Below are positions 41,750 through 50,019 of a stretch of DNA of 50,019 bases, piece by piece. The stretch comes from Planctomycetia bacterium (lineage in GTDB: Bacteria > Planctomycetota > UBA1135 > UBA2386). The notes below the pieces were generated by a model. The model was not told the DNA's origin. It saw only the letters and a list, made by a program, of their open reading frames with translations, and ran no database searches. Made by a program: the position numbers and the translations under genes. Location: NCBI GenBank assembly GCA_005776475.1, contig SXPB01000116.1, positions 1 to 50,019 of the forward strand, read 5' to 3'. Position 1 is the first letter of the stretch; each line of letters opens with the position of its first letter.

Positions 41750-44700
41750 CTACTTGGCGGTGGGCACCGGTTCGATCGCCGGCAACAGCCCGATCCCACT
41801 CGCTTCCACCGCCTGCCGGAACGTCGCCAGCGGGCCCGCCACGAACGCATCGACGGCGGCGGCGACCGCCGGCGCTTTTGCCTTCGCGCGCGCCATCGAC
41901 TCGATCTCCGTGCGGTTTGGCGCGTCGTCGGTGCCAGTCACCCGCAGCAACTGCTGCACCTCACTCATCAGTCCTTCGTCATCGCGGTTGATGCCCTGCA
42001 CCGGCTTCTTGCCCCACAGCGCCTCCTCGACGCCATCGAACGCCTTCTTCACCTCGGTGACGGCCTTGCGCAGCGCTTCGTGCGGATCGGTCGCACCCTT
42101 CTTCACCTTCGGCTCGATCGCCAGCCGCTTCTCGATCACGTCGATGTCGCGTTTGGCGCGCGCCAGCCGTTGCGTCGCCAGGCGCAGCGAACCCTGCACT
42201 TCCTGCCGCTGCGCACGCAGCGCGTCCTTGGCCTGCCGGTCGGCGAGCGCGATCGTGACGCGCGGGTCGGGTTGCACGGTGACCTTGGTCTCGCGGCTCT
42301 CGCCCTGGAAGCGCACCGTCAGCGTGTAGTCGCCGGGCAGCACTTCGCGGCCGGGCGGCGGCAGATCGGGTTCGTCCTGGAACTCGCGCGACGGGCCGGG
42401 GGCGCCGTCGCGTTCGAAGCGCCACACGAGGCGATTGAGCCCGAGGTGCACTCCGTGCCGGAACGTGCGCACCAGGGCGCCGTCGGCGCCGCGCACTTCG
42501 ATGGTCACCTGGTCCTTCGGTTCGTCGTCCTGCTTCTTCTCCGCGTCCTTCTTGTCCGCGTCCGGCGTCTCCGCCTTGTCTTCCTTCGCCGGCTTCACGC
42601 GGGTCTTCTCGACCTTTGCATCCGGGTGCTTCAGCTCCGGCGCGTTGGCGACCAGGTCGACGAACACGCCGCGTTGCCGCGTCTGCCCGCGGTACTCACC
42701 CTGGCCGGGAAAGCGCGAGCCGGGGCTTTGCGCCGTTTCGAAGGCGATCGCCGGCCGCGCCGCGAAAACGTGCAGCTTCTGCTGCAGCAGTTCGGGCGTG
42801 AGCGTGCGCAGCGGAGTGACGTCATCGAGCACGAAGATCGAGCGGCCGTGCGTCGCCACGACCAGGTCGTGGTCGCGCGGATGCGTGACGATCGCCATCG
42901 CCGAGCAGGGCGGCACGCCGTGCGCCCAACGCTGCCAGGTGGTGCCGCCGTCGATCGACACGTAGAGCCCGAACTCGGTGCCGAGCCACAGCAGGTTCTT
43001 CTGCACCGGGTCCTGTTCGAGCACGAGGCAGTAGCCGTCGAGCGCGGGCGTCGCCAACGACACCCACGTCGCGCCGAAGTCGCGCGTCACGTACACGTAC
43101 GGCGTCCAATCGGCGTGGCGATGGTTGTCGAACACGGCGAACGCGGTGCCGGCGTCGTGCGGGCTCGCTTCGAGGTGCGGGCACCAGGTGTTCTTCGGCA
43201 GCCCGGCAATGCGATGTTCGAGCGAGCTCCAGCTCTGGCCGCCGTCGCGCGTCAACTGCACGCGGCCGTCGTCGGTGCCAACCCACACGAGTCCCTGCTG
43301 CACCGGGCTCGGCGCGATGGTGACGATCGTGCAGTGGTTCTCGGCCGCGGTGACGTCACGCGTCAGCCCGCCGCTCTCGTGCTGCTTCTGCCACTCCGCG
43401 TTGTCGCTGGTGAGGTCGGGTGAGATCACGTCCCAGCCGTCGCCGCGATCGCGCGAGCGATGCACGAACTGGCTGCCGTAGTACACGGTCCCTGGCGTGA
43501 ACGGGTCGATCGCGATCGCCGCGTTCCAGTTGAAGCGCAGCGCCACGCCTTCGGGCGCCGGCGGCCGGATCGACTTGCTGATGCCGAGGCGCAGGTCGTA
43601 GCGCACGAGCGCGCCACCCTGGCTCATCGCGTAGCCCTGCCGGCTGTCCTGCGGATCGGGAACGGTGGCGAAGCCGTCGCCGAAACACACTTCCTGCCAG
43701 TGCGGGTTGCGGATGCCGCCGTTCTCCCAGACTGTCGATGGGCCGCGCCAGCTGCCGTTGTCCTGCAGGCCGCCGTAGACGTGGTAGGGCACGTCCATGT
43801 CGACGGCCACGTGATAGAACTGCGCCAGCGGCAGGTTGGCGCAGAAGCGCCACGACGCGCCGCGGTCGAGGCTCGTGTAGACGCCGCCGTCGTTGCCGAG
43901 GATCTGCCGGCGCGCATCGGTCGGATCGATCCACAGCGCGTGGTGGTCGGGGTGCGCCGCGTCCCAGCCGATCAGCCCGCCGAAGCTGCGGCCGCCATCG
44001 GTCGACACGTCGACGACGACGTGCAGGTTGTAGATGCGGTTCGCGTCGAGCGGATCGACGCGCAGGTCACAGAAGTAGAACGGGCGCGCCGCGACGTCGT
44101 CGGTGGTGTTGACGGTGCGGAAGCGGAAGCCGCCGTCGTCGCTGCGCAGCAGCGCGTTCTTCGTCGCTTCGACCAGCGCGTAGACCACGTTCGGATCGCT
44201 CGCGGCGATGCCAAGCCCGATGCGGCCGAGGTCGCCCGCCGGCAGGCCGTCGTCTTCGCCGAGTCGCGTCCACGTGGTGCCGCCGTCGAGCGTGCGGTGC
44301 AGGCCCGAGCCCTTGCCGCCCGACTTGAAGATCCACGGCCAACGCCGGTGTTCCCACATGCCCGCGAACAACTTGTCCGGATTGCGCGGATCGAGCACGA
44401 GGTCGGCGCAGCCGGTCTTGCCGTCGACGAACAGCACCTTCTCCCACGACGCGCCGCCATCGCGCGTGCGGAACACGCCGCGGTCGTCGTTCTCGCCCCA
44501 CGTGGTGCCCATCGCCGCGACCCACGCGGTGTCGGGTTGCGTCGGGTGCAGGACGATGCGGTGGATGCGCTCGGTCTTGCCGAGGCCGAGATGCTGCCAC
44601 GTGCGGCCGCCGTCGCGGGTCTTGTAGATGCCGCGGCCGACGCTCGCCGAGTTGCGCGGGTTGCCTTCGCCGGTGCCGATCCACACCACGTCGGGGCTGC

Positions 44701-45028
44701 GCGGATCGACGGCGAGCGCGCCGATCGAGGTCACGTTCTCCTTGTCGAACACGGGTTCGAAGCGAACGCCGCCGTCGGTCGACTTCCACACGCCGCCCGA
44801 CGCGGCGCCGACCCAGATCGTGGTCGGGTCGCCGGGGATGCCGGCGACGGCGCTGATGCGGCCACCGACGACGGCGGGTCCGATCGCGCGCGCCTTCAGG
44901 TCAGCGAGCAGGCCGAGATCGAACGCCGGCGTCGGCGTGCTCGGCGTTGGCGGATCCTGGGCGACGACCTGCAAGGGCAGCACGCAGGGGGAGCACAGGG
45001 CGAGAATGCGGGCGAGGTTGCGCAGCAT
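41750..45028 (-). CDS. Exported BNR/sortilin-like repeat protein
   Basis: A 1092-residue protein from ATG 45028 with a signal peptide (ALCSPCVLPLQVVAQ). The first 700 residues are a beta-propeller built of BNR/Asp-box units, with many SxDGGxTW-type boxes, for example WKSTDGGVRF, YKTRDGGRTWQHL, FRTRDGGASWEKV and RTLDGGTTWTRL. This is the VPS10/sortilin N-terminal type. After about residue 700 come Lys/Glu-rich stretches and a helical C-terminal region (KAFDGVEEALWGKKP). Such proteins bind ligands or carry exo-hydrolase folds; no catalytic residues are obvious. It heads the run of exported genes down to 38787. Confidence 0.9.
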   Translation of the reverse strand: MLRNLARILALCSPCVLPLQVVAQDPPTPSTPTPAFDLGLLADLKARAIGPAVVGGRISAVAGIPGDPTTIWVGAASGGVWKSTDGGVRFEPVFDKENVTSIGALAVDPRSPDVVWIGTGEGNPRNSASVGRGIYKTRDGGRTWQHLGLGKTERIHRIVLHPTQPDTAWVAAMGTTWGENDDRGVFRTRDGGASWEKVLFVDGKTGCADLVLDPRNPDKLFAGMWEHRRWPWIFKSGGKGSGLHRTLDGGTTWTRLGEDDGLPAGDLGRIGLGIAASDPNVVYALVEATKNALLRSDDGGFRFRTVNTTDDVAARPFYFCDLRVDPLDANRIYNLHVVVDVSTDGGRSFGGLIGWDAAHPDHHALWIDPTDARRQILGNDGGVYTSLDRGASWRFCANLPLAQFYHVAVDMDVPYHVYGGLQDNGSWRGPSTVWENGGIRNPHWQEVCFGDGFATVPDPQDSRQGYAMSQGGALVRYDLRLGISKSIRPPAPEGVALRFNWNAAIAIDPFTPGTVYYGSQFVHRSRDRGDGWDVISPDLTSDNAEWQKQHESGGLTRDVTAAENHCTIVTIAPSPVQQGLVWVGTDDGRVQLTRDGGQSWSSLEHRIAGLPKNTWCPHLEASPHDAGTAFAVFDNHRHADWTPYVYVTRDFGATWVSLATPALDGYCLVLEQDPVQKNLLWLGTEFGLYVSIDGGTTWQRWAHGVPPCSAMAIVTHPRDHDLVVATHGRSIFVLDDVTPLRTLTPELLQQKLHVFAARPAIAFETAQSPGSRFPGQGEYRGQTRQRGVFVDLVANAPELKHPDAKVEKTRVKPAKEDKAETPDADKKDAEKKQDDEPKDQVTIEVRGADGALVRTFRHGVHLGLNRLVWRFERDGAPGPSREFQDEPDLPPPGREVLPGDYTLTVRFQGESRETKVTVQPDPRVTIALADRQAKDALRAQRQEVQGSLRLATQRLARAKRDIDVIEKRLAIEPKVKKGATDPHEALRKAVTEVKKAFDGVEEALWGKKPVQGINRDDEGLMSEVQQLLRVTGTDDAPNRTEIESMARAKAKAPAVAAAVDAFVAGPLATFRQAVEASGIGLLPAIEPVPTAK

Positions 45029-45122: not shown

Positions 45123-47798
45123 CTAGCGCACGGCCGCGGCGACGATGCGCAGCAGCTGGTCGGCCGAGTACGGCTTCTGCAGGAACGCGATCTCGGCGCG
45201 GGCCACCCCGTCGCGCAGAAGCTCGTCGGCGGTGTAGCCGCTCATGAACACGGTGCGGCAACCCGGTCGCATCTGCTGCATGCGCTCGGCGAGTTGGCGG
45301 CCGTTGATGCCCGGCATCATAACGTCGGTCACCAGCACGTCGATGTGCGGGTGCCTGGCCGCCACGACCAGTGCGGTTTCGCCGTCGGGCGCGGTCTGCA
45401 CGTGGTAGCCGGCCTGGCTGAGAATGCGCTCGGCGAGGCCGCGGTTGCTGGCATCGTCTTCGACGAGCAGCACGAACCGGGCTGGCGTCGGGGGCACGGC
45501 AAGCGTCGTCGTCGCCAGCAGCGGCGCGTCGGCGCGCGGCCAGAACACATGGAACGTGCTGCCCTGACCGGGCGCACTCTCGATTTCGATCCGGCCGCCG
45601 GCCTGCGTCACGATGCCCCACACCGTGGCGAGGCCAAGTCCGGTGCCGCGGCCAGGTTCCTTGGTGGTGAAGAACGGTTCGAACAGGTGTGCCTTCACCG
45701 AGTCGTCCATGCCGGTGCCGTTGTCGCGCACCGAGATGCGCACCGCGTCGTCGTCGGCGCCGAGGCGGCCGGGCGCGATCGTGAGCAGCAACCGGCCACC
45801 GTGCGGCATGGCGTCGCGTGCGTTCACGACGAGGTTGAGCAGCACTTGCTGGAACTGCCCCTTGTCGGCGCGCACGGTGCCGGCCGGCGTGGCTTCGATG
45901 TCGAACTGGATGTTGGCTTCGAGCAGCCGACGCAGCATCGGCGCGAACGTGTGCACTTCGTCACCCGGCTCGATCACTTCGGTGCGCACGATCTCCTTGC
46001 GGCTGAAGGAGAGCAGTTGCCGCGTCAGGTTGGCGCCGCGCTCGGCCGCGCGCTTGATCTCTTCGGCGATGGAGTAGGTCGGATCGTTCGGGTCGCCGGT
46101 GGTGCAAAGCAGGTCGCTGAACCCCATCACCGCGGTCAGCACGTTGTTGAAGTCGTGGGCGACGCCGCCGGCCAGCAACCCCACGGCTTCGAGCTTCTGT
46201 GCGTGCCGCAACTGGCCTTCGAGACGCTGCCGCGCGCGCTCGGCTTCGACCTGGTCGCTGACGTCCCACTGGAAGGCGACCACGCCGTTGACCTGCCCCG
46301 ACGGTTCGCGCATCGGGAAGAACACGCAATCGAGCCAGACGCGACGACGGTGCAGTGGCCACTGCGCGTAGGTCGGCGCGGTGAAGTCGATCTCGCGCCG
46401 TTCGATGCCCGTGGTCTCGCCGGCTATGCAGCGCCGGAAGTTGTCGGCCAGGCCGGTGCGAATGGCTTCGGAATCCTGCAGCAGGTTGTAGACGCCGACG
46501 CCGACGTCGCGCGACGGCAAGCCGAGCAGCCGCTGCATCGCTGCGTTCATGCGCACCGACGTGCCTTCGGTGGTGAAGATCTGGATGGCAATCGGACTGC
46601 CGTCGATCACCGCGGTGAGGAAACGCTCGCGTTCGCGCAGCCGGGCTTCGGATTCGCGCGGGCTGGTGTCGTCGCGCACGACGCCGAGCATGCGCACCGC
46701 TTCGCCCCCAGGGCTGTAGTGGAAACGCCCCCGGCCCGAGAACCAACGCACGGAGCCGTCCGGTCGGAGCACGCGGGCCGTGTGGTGGATCTCGCCCTGG
46801 CTTTGGCGAGCGGTTTCGATGCTCGCTTGCACTCCGGGCCAGTCTTCTGGATGCACCCGGTCCTGGAAGTGGGCGAAGGTGACTTCGGCCGGATCGCCGA
46901 TCGGGTAGCCGAACAGTTCGTAGTGGAACGCCGACCACACAACCCGGTTGGTGGTGACGTCCCAGTCGAACGTGCCCATGCTGCCCGCCGCGAGTGCGAG
47001 GCGCAGGCGTTCTTCGGCGGCTTCCAGTGCGTCGGCGGCGCGGCGCCGCGCGGTCAGGTCGCGATCGATGGCGAGGATCGCGGGGCGTCCCTGCCATTGG
47101 ACGAGGCACGCACGCGCCTCGATCGGCATTTCGGTGCCGTCTTTGCGGCGATGCCGGCCCTCGAACGTGACGATGTCGCCTCGGCGCAAGCGAACCAGCC
47201 GGTCGGGGGCATGTTGCGCCGTGCACGGGGTGTCGAGCAGTTCGAGGATCGACTTGCCGAGCATCTCCTCGGCGGAGTAGCCGTAGGTCGAGGTGGCGGC
47301 GTGGTTGACGTAGGCGATGCGCGCCGGCGGCGTCGACTCGAGTTCGAGTACGAACACCGGATCGGGAATGTGGTCGGCCAGCTTGCCGAAGGGAGGCTGG
47401 ATGCGGGCGTGGTCGGTGCCCCAGGTCACCAACACGAGGTTGCTCGCGGCGCCGGCTGAGCCGATGGGCGCCAGCCGCACGCTCACCGAGCCAGGCGCCA
47501 TTCCATGCCAGGTGAAGGTCGCCTCGGCGCGCCGCGCCAGCGCTTCCTCGAACTCGGTCGCCTGGGCGGGCGAGCCGCCAAAGCCCGCCATCACCAATTG
47601 GCGCGCAGGGTTGCCCGGTATGGCGGCGACGAAAGCTCGGGCAGCGGCGTTGGCATACGCGATCGTGGAAGCTTCCGCAGCGACGGCGACCAGCACGGTC
47701 GGGTCGGGAAGTCTCTCGAATGCGAACGCGAACACGCTGCCGTCGGCCGGACTGCGGTCGGCGGGGGTCATGACCTGGGCAACCTCTCTGCACAGCAT
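45123..47798 (-). CDS. Hybrid PAS-domain sensor histidine kinase with receiver domain
   Basis: An 891-residue cytoplasmic protein with at least three to four PAS-like sensor domains in the first 520 residues (for example RIAYVNHAATSTYGYSAEEM and NRVVWSAFHYELFGYPIGDP). It carries a histidine-kinase core with phospho-acceptor His548 in GGVAHDFNNVLTAVMGFSDL. The ATPase domain has NARDAMPHGG, DNGTGMD and GRGTGLGLATVWGIV. A C-terminal receiver holds Asp825 in LVTDVMMPG. Being a hybrid, it probably passes phosphate to a separate histidine phosphotransfer protein or works as a self-contained regulator. ATG 47798 is used; ATG 47771 (MTPADRS) is a close alternative. No transmembrane segment is visible. 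Confidence 0.93.
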   Translation of the reverse strand: MLCREVAQVMTPADRSPADGSVFAFAFERLPDPTVLVAVAAEASTIAYANAAARAFVAAIPGNPARQLVMAGFGGSPAQATEFEEALARRAEATFTWHGMAPGSVSVRLAPIGSAGAASNLVLVTWGTDHARIQPPFGKLADHIPDPVFVLELESTPPARIAYVNHAATSTYGYSAEEMLGKSILELLDTPCTAQHAPDRLVRLRRGDIVTFEGRHRRKDGTEMPIEARACLVQWQGRPAILAIDRDLTARRRAADALEAAEERLRLALAAGSMGTFDWDVTTNRVVWSAFHYELFGYPIGDPAEVTFAHFQDRVHPEDWPGVQASIETARQSQGEIHHTARVLRPDGSVRWFSGRGRFHYSPGGEAVRMLGVVRDDTSPRESEARLRERERFLTAVIDGSPIAIQIFTTEGTSVRMNAAMQRLLGLPSRDVGVGVYNLLQDSEAIRTGLADNFRRCIAGETTGIERREIDFTAPTYAQWPLHRRRVWLDCVFFPMREPSGQVNGVVAFQWDVSDQVEAERARQRLEGQLRHAQKLEAVGLLAGGVAHDFNNVLTAVMGFSDLLCTTGDPNDPTYSIAEEIKRAAERGANLTRQLLSFSRKEIVRTEVIEPGDEVHTFAPMLRRLLEANIQFDIEATPAGTVRADKGQFQQVLLNLVVNARDAMPHGGRLLLTIAPGRLGADDDAVRISVRDNGTGMDDSVKAHLFEPFFTTKEPGRGTGLGLATVWGIVTQAGGRIEIESAPGQGSTFHVFWPRADAPLLATTTLAVPPTPARFVLLVEDDASNRGLAERILSQAGYHVQTAPDGETALVVAARHPHIDVLVTDVMMPGINGRQLAERMQQMRPGCRTVFMSGYTADELLRDGVARAEIAFLQKPYSADQLLRIVAAAVR

Positions 47799-48238: not shown

Positions 48239-49786
48239 ATGAGCGAGCCGCAAGATCCCAAACTCGGCAAGGCTATCACCAAGAATACGCCTTGGGTGAT
48301 GATCGCCGTGATGGCCCACGTGGTCCTTATCGCGATTGCATCGATCGCGTACTACGCGCACGACACCGCGATCGAGGACAACGTCGTCACTTCGATCTCG
48401 ATGAACGAAGCGGCGCCCAGGCTTGATGAAATCAAGCCGCCGGACATCAAGGACCGCGAAGATGTCCCGAAGATCAAGGACGAGGACATCCCGCCGAGCG
48501 ACCTGACGGAGTTCAATCCGGACGCCGTCGAGGACCCCGAGCAGGGCGACCCGACCGACCCGAACTCGGTCAGCGAGTTGACCAACATGCCGAGTGGTGA
48601 CACCACCGGCGGTTCGGCGATCGGCGTCAACGGCCCCGGCCACTTCGGTCTGGCCCCGTCCGCGACGGGTGGTCGTCGGCCCGGTGGCGGCAAGTACGGC
48701 AGTCGCTTCGGTCGCGGCAACGGCCCGGGTGGCGCCGGTGGTCGCGTCAACGAGGCGGTCACTGCCGGCCTCGAATGGCTGCGCAAGCACCAGGATGAAG
48801 ATGGCCGCTGGGACTGCGCCAACTTCATGAAGCACGACAAGGAAGGCGAACCGTGCACGGGCGCTGGCAGCAGCGTCAACGACGTCGGTGTCAGCGGCCT
48901 CGCGCTGCTTGCGTTCCTTGGCGAAGGCAACACGATGAAGCATGGCACCTACCGCAAGGTGGTGCAGAAAGGCGTCAAGTGGATCCTGGAGCAGCAGGGC
49001 GAGAACGGCCTGCTCGGCACCAACTCGTCGCAGGCGTTCGTCTACAACCACGCGATCGCGACCGTGGCCCTGTGCGAGGCCTACGGCTTGTCGGAGCACC
49101 GCCCGCTGAAGAAGCCGGCCCAGAACGCGATCAACTACATCGCCAATGCCCGTAACCCTTACGGCGTATGGCGTTACCAGCCGCGAGAGAACGACGGCGA
49201 TACGTCGATCACGGGCTGGATGGTGCAGGCGCTGCTGTCGGCCAAGGAGTTCCAGCTCGAGGTCGATGACGCGGCGCTGAAGACGTCGCTCGTGTTCTTC
49301 GACAGCGTCACCGATCCGGGCACCGGCGCGGCTGGCTACACCAAGGCGGGCGAGGGCTCTTCGCGCAATGCGAACATGCTCGACAAGTTCCCCGCGGCGA
49401 AGACCGAGTCGCTGACGGCCGTCGTGCTGCTCTGCCGCTTCCTGATGCACCAGGATCCAAAGGACGTGGCGATCATGAACAAGTCGGCGACGACGATCAT
49501 GACGAAGCCGCCGACCTGGAACGAAGCAGACGGTTCGATCGACATGTACTACTGGTACTACGCGAGCTACGCGATGTACCAGGTCGGCGGCAAGAACTGG
49601 GACCTGTGGGCCAGGAAGCTGACCGACGCTGCGGTGAAGACGCAGATGAAGGAAGGCAACGCGAAGGGCTCGTGGAACCCGGTGGACCCATGGGGTGAGG
49701 ACGGTGGTCGCGTCTACTCGACGGCGATCATGGTCCTGTGCCTCGAGGCGTACTACCGCTACGGCAAGGTTTCGTTCGCTCGCTGA
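48239..49786 (+). CDS. TonB-like N-terminus fused to an alpha/alpha-toroid (squalene-cyclase-fold) domain
   Basis: A 515-residue membrane-anchored protein. A short basic N-terminus is followed by one helix at 18-40 (VMIAVMAHVVLIAIASIAYY) with His27 inside it, as in TonB. Residues about 45-170 are acidic and Pro-rich, then Gly-rich (IKDREDVPKIKDEDIPP, GGRRPGGGKYGS), like a periplasm-spanning spacer. From about 175 come toroid repeats (GLEWLRKHQDEDGRWDCANF, KWILEQQGENGLLG, GVWRYQPRENDGDTSITGWM). The catalytic DxDD motif of hopene cyclase is lacking. A downstream exported gene begins 18 bp later, consistent with an operon. Confidence 0.85.
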   Translation: MSEPQDPKLGKAITKNTPWVMIAVMAHVVLIAIASIAYYAHDTAIEDNVVTSISMNEAAPRLDEIKPPDIKDREDVPKIKDEDIPPSDLTEFNPDAVEDPEQGDPTDPNSVSELTNMPSGDTTGGSAIGVNGPGHFGLAPSATGGRRPGGGKYGSRFGRGNGPGGAGGRVNEAVTAGLEWLRKHQDEDGRWDCANFMKHDKEGEPCTGAGSSVNDVGVSGLALLAFLGEGNTMKHGTYRKVVQKGVKWILEQQGENGLLGTNSSQAFVYNHAIATVALCEAYGLSEHRPLKKPAQNAINYIANARNPYGVWRYQPRENDGDTSITGWMVQALLSAKEFQLEVDDAALKTSLVFFDSVTDPGTGAAGYTKAGEGSSRNANMLDKFPAAKTESLTAVVLLCRFLMHQDPKDVAIMNKSATTIMTKPPTWNEADGSIDMYYWYYASYAMYQVGGKNWDLWARKLTDAAVKTQMKEGNAKGSWNPVDPWGEDGGRVYSTAIMVLCLEAYYRYGKVSFAR

Positions 49787-49804
49787 TTTGAGAGAGGCTT
49801 CGTG

Positions 49805-50019
49805 ATGTCGCGCCTGATGGTTCTCCAGTCCGCGGTTCGCCGCTCTGTCCTGCTCGCCTTCTCCCTTGGCACGTTCGTGCTGGCTCCTGCGCTCACCGCG
49901 CAGACCAGCGCGGTGCTCGGCCAGAAGAACGAAGCGTTCCTGCTCGGCCTGTGGCGGGCCGGCTACGTCGACTACGCCGACCGGCTCGGCATGTTGGTGG
50001 CCCAATCGAACCTCACCGA
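49805..50019 (+). CDS. N-terminus of an exported protein (partial, runs off the right edge)
   Basis: The first 71 codons from ATG 49805. AGAGG lies about 7 bp upstream. A long signal-like stretch (RRSVLLAFSLGTFVLAPALT) ends near TAQ, a probable cleavage site. The mature part starts helical (AVLGQKNEAFLLGLWRAGYV), a pattern like TPR-type proteins that often follow these toroid genes, but too little is present to assign a family. Only 18 bp separate it from the toroid stop, so the two are likely cotranscribed. Confidence 0.7.
   Translation, partial: MSRLMVLQSAVRRSVLLAFSLGTFVLAPALTAQTSAVLGQKNEAFLLGLWRAGYVDYADRLGMLVAQSNLT

Follow-up and report, generated by a model that had tools for sequence, protein, structure and literature searches.

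A TonB-like membrane anchor tipped with an alpha-toroid in Planctomycetota and an ExbB/ExbD operon in its relatives

The gene at positions 48239–49786 of the window, by which we mean the whole stretch of 50,019 nucleotides analysed here, encodes a protein that is built like TonB as far as its C-terminal part, where it carries a squalene-cyclase-like alpha-toroid. We show the architecture of this protein, the conservation of a histidine in its transmembrane (TM) helix, an operon in relatives that joins the toroid gene to genes of an ExbB/ExbD motor, and a clade of ExbBs dedicated to that operon. Given the TonB-like build with a toroid end and the ExbB/ExbD operon in relatives, the protein probably carries mechanical energy into the envelope, and we are fairly confident that it is an envelope force transducer of the TonB/TolA/vWA kind, driven by the proton motive force and ending in a new C-terminal module.

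TonB and TolA have long been regarded as the main arms of ExbBD-type motors. A cyclase-like toroid module that is widespread in Planctomycetota with its own motor would broaden what motors of this type power. The toroid system also gives a testable entry to the question of how the unusual envelope of Planctomycetes is energised, the uptake of polysaccharides included.

Architecture of the toroid protein

The toroid gene starts with ATG and ends with a TGA at 49784–49786; the range 48239–50019 to which the original prediction referred takes in this gene and 71 codons from the start of a second one. The features of the region are:

48239–49786, forward strand: gene of the putative toroid transducer, 515 aa (open reading frame; orthologues 60–77% identical in related genomes; squalene-hopene cyclase profile match)
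48239–48292, forward strand: short cytoplasmic N-terminus, residues 1–18 (translation)
48293–48361, forward strand: TM helix, residues 19–41 (hydropathy; AlphaFold2 helix 7–42)
48317–48319, forward strand: codon of TM His27, the equivalent of TonB His20 and TolA His22 (conserved in 59/61 anchored homologues)
48365–48736, forward strand: disordered spacer, acidic and Pro-rich, then Gly-rich, residues 43–166 (composition; pLDDT <50 at 44–166)
48392–48403, forward strand: SISM, residues 52–55, candidate D-box or motor box (at His+25 to +28)
48737–49759, forward strand: alpha-toroid domain, residues 167–507 (AlphaFold2, Foldseek, conserved core motifs)
49790–49797, forward strand: Shine-Dalgarno-like GAGAGAGG preceding the downstream gene (sequence)
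49805–50019, forward strand: 5' end of T1, which encodes a large exported protein of TPR repeats and is truncated where the contig stops (phmmer E 1e-7 to T1 of the closest relative, G005)

Two other genes of the window lie on the reverse strand. One (45123–47798), divergent from the toroid gene, encodes a hybrid PAS histidine kinase with a receiver domain, and the other (41750–45028) an exported sortilin/VPS10-type BNR-repeat protein of 1092 aa.

The N-terminal sequence of the toroid protein is MSEPQDPKLGKAITKNTPWVMIAVMAHVVLIAIASIAYYAHD, in which His27 lies within the TM helix and Ala23 four residues before it. AlphaFold2 predicts the helix at residues 7–42, disorder at 44–166 and the toroid at 166–507, with block pLDDT mostly 84–97 in the toroid. 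The 124 residues of the spacer include 19 Gly and 15 Pro; acidic residues (22 Asp/Glu) outnumber basic ones (11 Lys/Arg). The original prediction had described a short cytoplasmic tail, a TM helix with an internal His, an acidic Pro-rich and Gly-rich spacer, and a squalene-cyclase-like toroid where TonB has its C-terminal domain. Translation, hydropathy, composition, structure prediction and the family profile agree with this description in each part, and TonB_C (PF03544) gave no match to the protein. As the domain order is kept in dozens of homologues, the architecture is not a chance reading.

Foldseek placed the toroid domain among alpha/alpha toroids at a TMt of about 0.6, with AprG, a GH76 mannanase, squalene-hopene cyclase and sugar epimerases as neighbours. 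The toroid family profile matches squalene-hopene cyclases with an E of 2.6e-10, whereas phmmer with the single protein against solved structures was uninformative. The protein itself scores 24.2 bits with Pfam SQHop_cyclase_C (PF13243), under the gathering cut-off of 26.1, and 22.6 bits with the NCBIfam equivalog TIGR01507 against a cut-off of 431. The conserved core comprises W-R-Y, D-S, YYWYY, GSW and GGRVYSTA, and E280, R312, D321, D435 and W439 are among the invariant acidic and aromatic residues. The DxDD catalytic motif was not found in the window protein, in which D-[NG]-D-T-S at D321 comes closest; D.DD occurs in the toroid part of 7/66 homologues. We have set aside a catalytic cyclase identity since the window protein lacks DxDD, and by its motifs the protein is not a terpene cyclase. 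The likeness to squalene-hopene cyclase and other class II terpene cyclases thus consists of the alpha/alpha toroid fold, QW-like motifs and the profile match, while the window protein differs in being a single toroid without DxDD, under the Pfam cut-off and predicted to sit in the periplasm, held by a TM anchor and a spacer.

For the anchor we compared the 63 homologues whose N-terminal helix is hydrophobic, leaving out two signal-peptide-like sequences. Of the 61 anchored proteins that remain, 59 carry the His in the TM helix, and the other two, from genomes G039 and G043, have Asn. The original prediction named lack of conservation of this His as a result that would refute it, and the count speaks clearly for conservation; the His was also seen across the phylum. 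Four residues before it, 51/59 His-bearing homologues have the Ser of an SxxxH motif and 8/59 have Ala, as does the window protein at position 23. It is the Ser-His face of the TM helix that contacts ExbB/TolQ in TonB and TolA (PMC12215075). In the window genome, two toroid relatives (L004 on contig C245 and L008 on contig C193) have a signal-peptide-like N-terminus replacing the His-bearing anchor.

Substitution of TonB His20 by Asn has been reported to retain function; our literature search on TonB H20N found nothing. In G039 and G043, two further toroid paralogues also have Asn at the TM His site, so that the Asn-bearing loci are L077, L080, L177 and L178, all from one planctomycete family. 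In the alignment, the operon ExbB of both genomes has Phe at the position of the usual TM1 Ser. A pairing of Asn in the toroid TM with Phe in TM1 of ExbB is only suggestive, because it rests on a single lineage. The equivalent of E. coli ExbB Trp38 is not conserved in the aligned operon ExbBs.

Beyond the membrane, SISM of the window protein stands at a distance from the His similar to that of SVTM in E. coli TonB (His+26 to +29; PMC10907165). A strict alternating D-box pattern after the TM was found in 14/60 homologues against 2.7 in shuffled linkers, the sequences being related. A D-box-like strand is present in only part of the toroid family, and we dropped the claim of a strict D-box for the family for that reason.

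The motor operon in relatives

That the toroid gene is followed after 18 bp by an exported gene, as originally predicted, holds: T1 begins at 49805, and its product is a homologue of the large TPR protein that the operons of relatives encode, the fragment being 48% identical over 46 aa to T1 of G005. The contig is exactly the window and ends at 50019, 71 codons into T1. From this match we infer an operon of the order toroid, T1, T2, ExbB, ExbD, ExbD, Z, of which only the first two genes fall within the window. Neither the remainder of T1 nor an operon-type ExbB was found on other contigs of the window assembly, which is 75.65% complete. A lone ExbD gene on contig C152 (L024, 9732–10190, reverse strand) is close to the operon ExbD2 and has no ExbB nearby; it was considered as the missing motor and rejected, as it stands without an ExbB.

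The closest orthologue of the toroid protein, 76% identical, is in G005, where toroid, T1 (939 aa, TPR), T2 (400 aa, TPR), ExbB, ExbD1, ExbD2 and Z, a small TM protein, lie on one strand. ExbB and the two ExbDs score 90, 73 and 56 bits with Pfam, all over the cut-offs, and the structure model of T1 is an all-helical TPR superhelix with one long repeat array (mean pLDDT 86). Besides G005, at least six other genomes have a motor operon headed by a toroid gene, with the same co-directional order: G017, G036 (contig C90), G039, whose operon carries three ExbDs, G043, and the genomes of locus L138 and the distant L194. L125 fits the order up to its contig end, and L156 reads toroid and T1 before its contig ends. 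In G003 the toroid gene ends one contig and T1-T2-ExbB-ExbD-ExbD-Z opens another, a break of the kind met in the window.

Absence of linked ExbB/ExbD-type genes in any relative was the other result named beforehand as refuting, and it did not occur: in several relatives, the closest orthologue among them, the toroid gene is followed on its own strand by ExbB-ExbD-ExbD further downstream. By a simple estimate, the chance of a same-strand ExbB within 10 kb downstream is about 0.2–0.5% per locus. The pore Asp of ExbD and the ExbB pore motifs GTVxGM/TT were present wherever the search pattern matched. Gene calls in these high-GC loci were mechanical. L131 was not counted as linked, since its ExbBs belong to another family.

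A Tol-Pal-like system for envelope maintenance, or a gliding-type system, in which the toroid replaces TolA or vWA, would be one purpose compatible with a transducer driven by the proton motive force. One ExbB with two different ExbDs and TPR genes resembles the vWA loci of PVC bacteria (PMC12204202), and the large TPR protein weakly matches tol-pal YbgF, but in reading the operons we noticed neither Pal nor TolB nor any motility gene, and we regard this purpose as possible, if doubtful.

Toroid lineages and loci without an adjacent motor

In our trees, the ExbBs of the motor operons form one clade (support 100/100) against those of a second, secretin-linked cluster. For the toroids of the same operons, a single clade was rejected (AU p = 0.0015), and the toroids of the window clade group with motor-free toroids of related genomes. 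The toroid grouping for the AU test was picked after the first tree had been seen, and long branches (contig C90 of G036) counsel care. As there is one ExbB clade and not one toroid clade, different toroids have been placed on one motor type. The simplest reading of these trees would be that toroid genes of more than one lineage came to lead a motor-TPR operon which itself stayed stable, a pattern one would expect if the arms can be exchanged.

The toroid family is present in 59/61 related genomes at 1e-60 and in 163/199 sampled Planctomycetota genomes. Toroid genes have two ARRANGEMENTS: class A is the motor operon, and class B, the majority, consists of single toroids or tandem pairs. Class B accounts for 93/105 toroid-bearing loci, in whose examined flanks no motor gene lies; many flanks were short, and the count of toroid-motor linkage depends on their extent. 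In many of these genomes a gene of some 1100 aa precedes the class B pair, joined in some of them by a SurA-like gene.

These loci bear on whether the toroid is instead a membrane-tethered periplasmic enzyme or ligand binder of terpenoid or sugar type, only loosely operonic, with the motor serving a TPR/secretin machinery via another transducer. That most family members lack an adjacent motor would fit such a role, as would the relatives with a signal peptide and no anchor (L004, L008), the enzymes among the Foldseek neighbours (AprG, GH76, sugar epimerases, squalene-hopene cyclase) and the invariant E280, R312, D321, D435 and W439, which suggest a functional cavity. A mere anchor, however, needs no phylum-wide TM His or SxxxH, and different toroid lineages head one motor lineage. 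Nor was another SxxxH transducer seen in the operon; in G005, Z is the only product besides the motor subunits with a single apparent TM, and this TM lacks SxxxH. We consider an enzyme or binder quite improbable and retain the force transducer.

The second motor cluster, flanked by TPR-secretins in the window genome and relatives, reads secretin, T1-like, T2-like, ExbB, ExbD, ExbD, secretin; the T1-like and T2-like calls rest on profile matches, which some copies did not give. In the window genome itself (L021, contig C6, 1150–13199) the layout is secretin, TPR, T2-like, ExbB, ExbD, ExbD, secretin. Its recurrence in L084, L086, L087, L090 and L091 gives it the look of a widespread motor-secretin system. 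On contig C102 of G036 (L064/L099), two toroids and a T1 are divergent from an ExbD-ExbD-ExbB-T2-T1 cluster that is flanked at each end by secretin matches. Because this contig joins toroids to the secretin-type motor cluster, we infer that toroids of class B may be partners of its motor.

A second purpose compatible with the force transducer would be import of large polymers, in which the toroid arm energises TPR-secretin complexes of the outer membrane. This would explain polysaccharide uptake in Planctomycetes, the mechanism of which is still described as unknown (PMC5520146, PMC11131199). It draws on the secretin cluster in the window genome and several relatives, on the toroid pair and T1 within that cluster in G036, and on sugar-acting folds among the toroid neighbours. 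Yet no secretin was found near class A operons, no carbohydrate genes were shown to be linked, toroids and secretins stand together in only one genome, and function in uptake is untested, so we hold it to be unlikely. Broader still, and a long shot, would be a phylum-wide machine of Planctomycetota in which ExbB/ExbD1/ExbD2 motors, toroid-tipped arms, TPR scaffolds and secretin-type pores move large molecules across an enlarged periplasm, the toroid recognising cargo or pore.

Proposed mechanism and comparison with known systems

We propose that the TM helix docks via its His face on the dedicated ExbB-ExbD1-ExbD2 motor; ExbD may hold on to the strand just past the membrane. The spacer, disordered and rich in Pro and Gly, would span the periplasm and carry force to the toroid. 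The alpha-toroid tip, replacing the TonB C-terminal domain, would then grip or release a periplasmic or outer-membrane partner, for which the two TPR proteins of the neighbouring genes are the likeliest candidates. Physical coupling of the toroid protein to the motor is inferred and has not been shown, there being neither a model of the complex nor an experiment. The energised periplasmic system originally suggested is supported, with qualifications: motor genes are linked in relatives and the His is conserved. Against it and the proposed transducer, the motor was not seen on the protein's own contig, most toroid loci show no motor gene in the flank examined, the Ser is replaced by Ala, the ExbB Trp38 equivalent is not conserved and only part of the family has a D-box-like strand.

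Canonical TonB_C genes occur in 56/61 genomes, including genuine ones elsewhere in the window genome, and receptor plug domains, a few in each, in 61/61. The toroid as a substitute for canonical TonB was rejected, as both are found in nearly all relatives; since canonical TonB coexists with it, the toroid system is an addition and not a replacement. With E. coli TonB the toroid protein shares an N-in single TM, the motor-facing His with PW before it and a Pro-rich acidic spacer; a strand-like stretch about 28 residues past the His may be a further match. The genetic link to ExbB/ExbD is likewise shared, in the relatives only, as the protein's own contig ends first. It differs in the alpha-toroid that stands in place of TonB_C and in Ala at −4, and its operon differs in having two different ExbDs and exported TPR partner genes; no TonB-dependent receptor was found in the operon. 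The toroid protein probably works like TonB and is not a TonB member by domain content, because TonB_C is absent and the Ser of SxxxH is Ala. We found no description of a toroid-tipped TonB-like protein in the openly accessible literature searched.

In the Agl-Glt gliding machinery of Myxococcus, as in the toroid operon, a single subunit of TolQ type is combined with two of TolR type and with TPR and TonB-like proteins of the periplasm; we know of no toroid protein in this machinery. Arms other than TonB, with vWA domains, were proposed in 2025 for PVC and other bacteria (PMC12204202), and these transducers match the toroid system most closely. They differ in fold, the top Foldseek matches of the toroid being alpha toroids and not vWA, and in gene order, the toroid gene standing first, upstream of the TPR genes, and the vWA transducer gene downstream of the motor. 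The two have in common an SHLS-type TM, a disordered linker and a C-terminal domain that is not that of TonB, and the TPR, one tolQ and two unlike tolR genes of the vWA loci correspond to T1, T2, ExbB, ExbD1 and ExbD2 in the toroid relatives.
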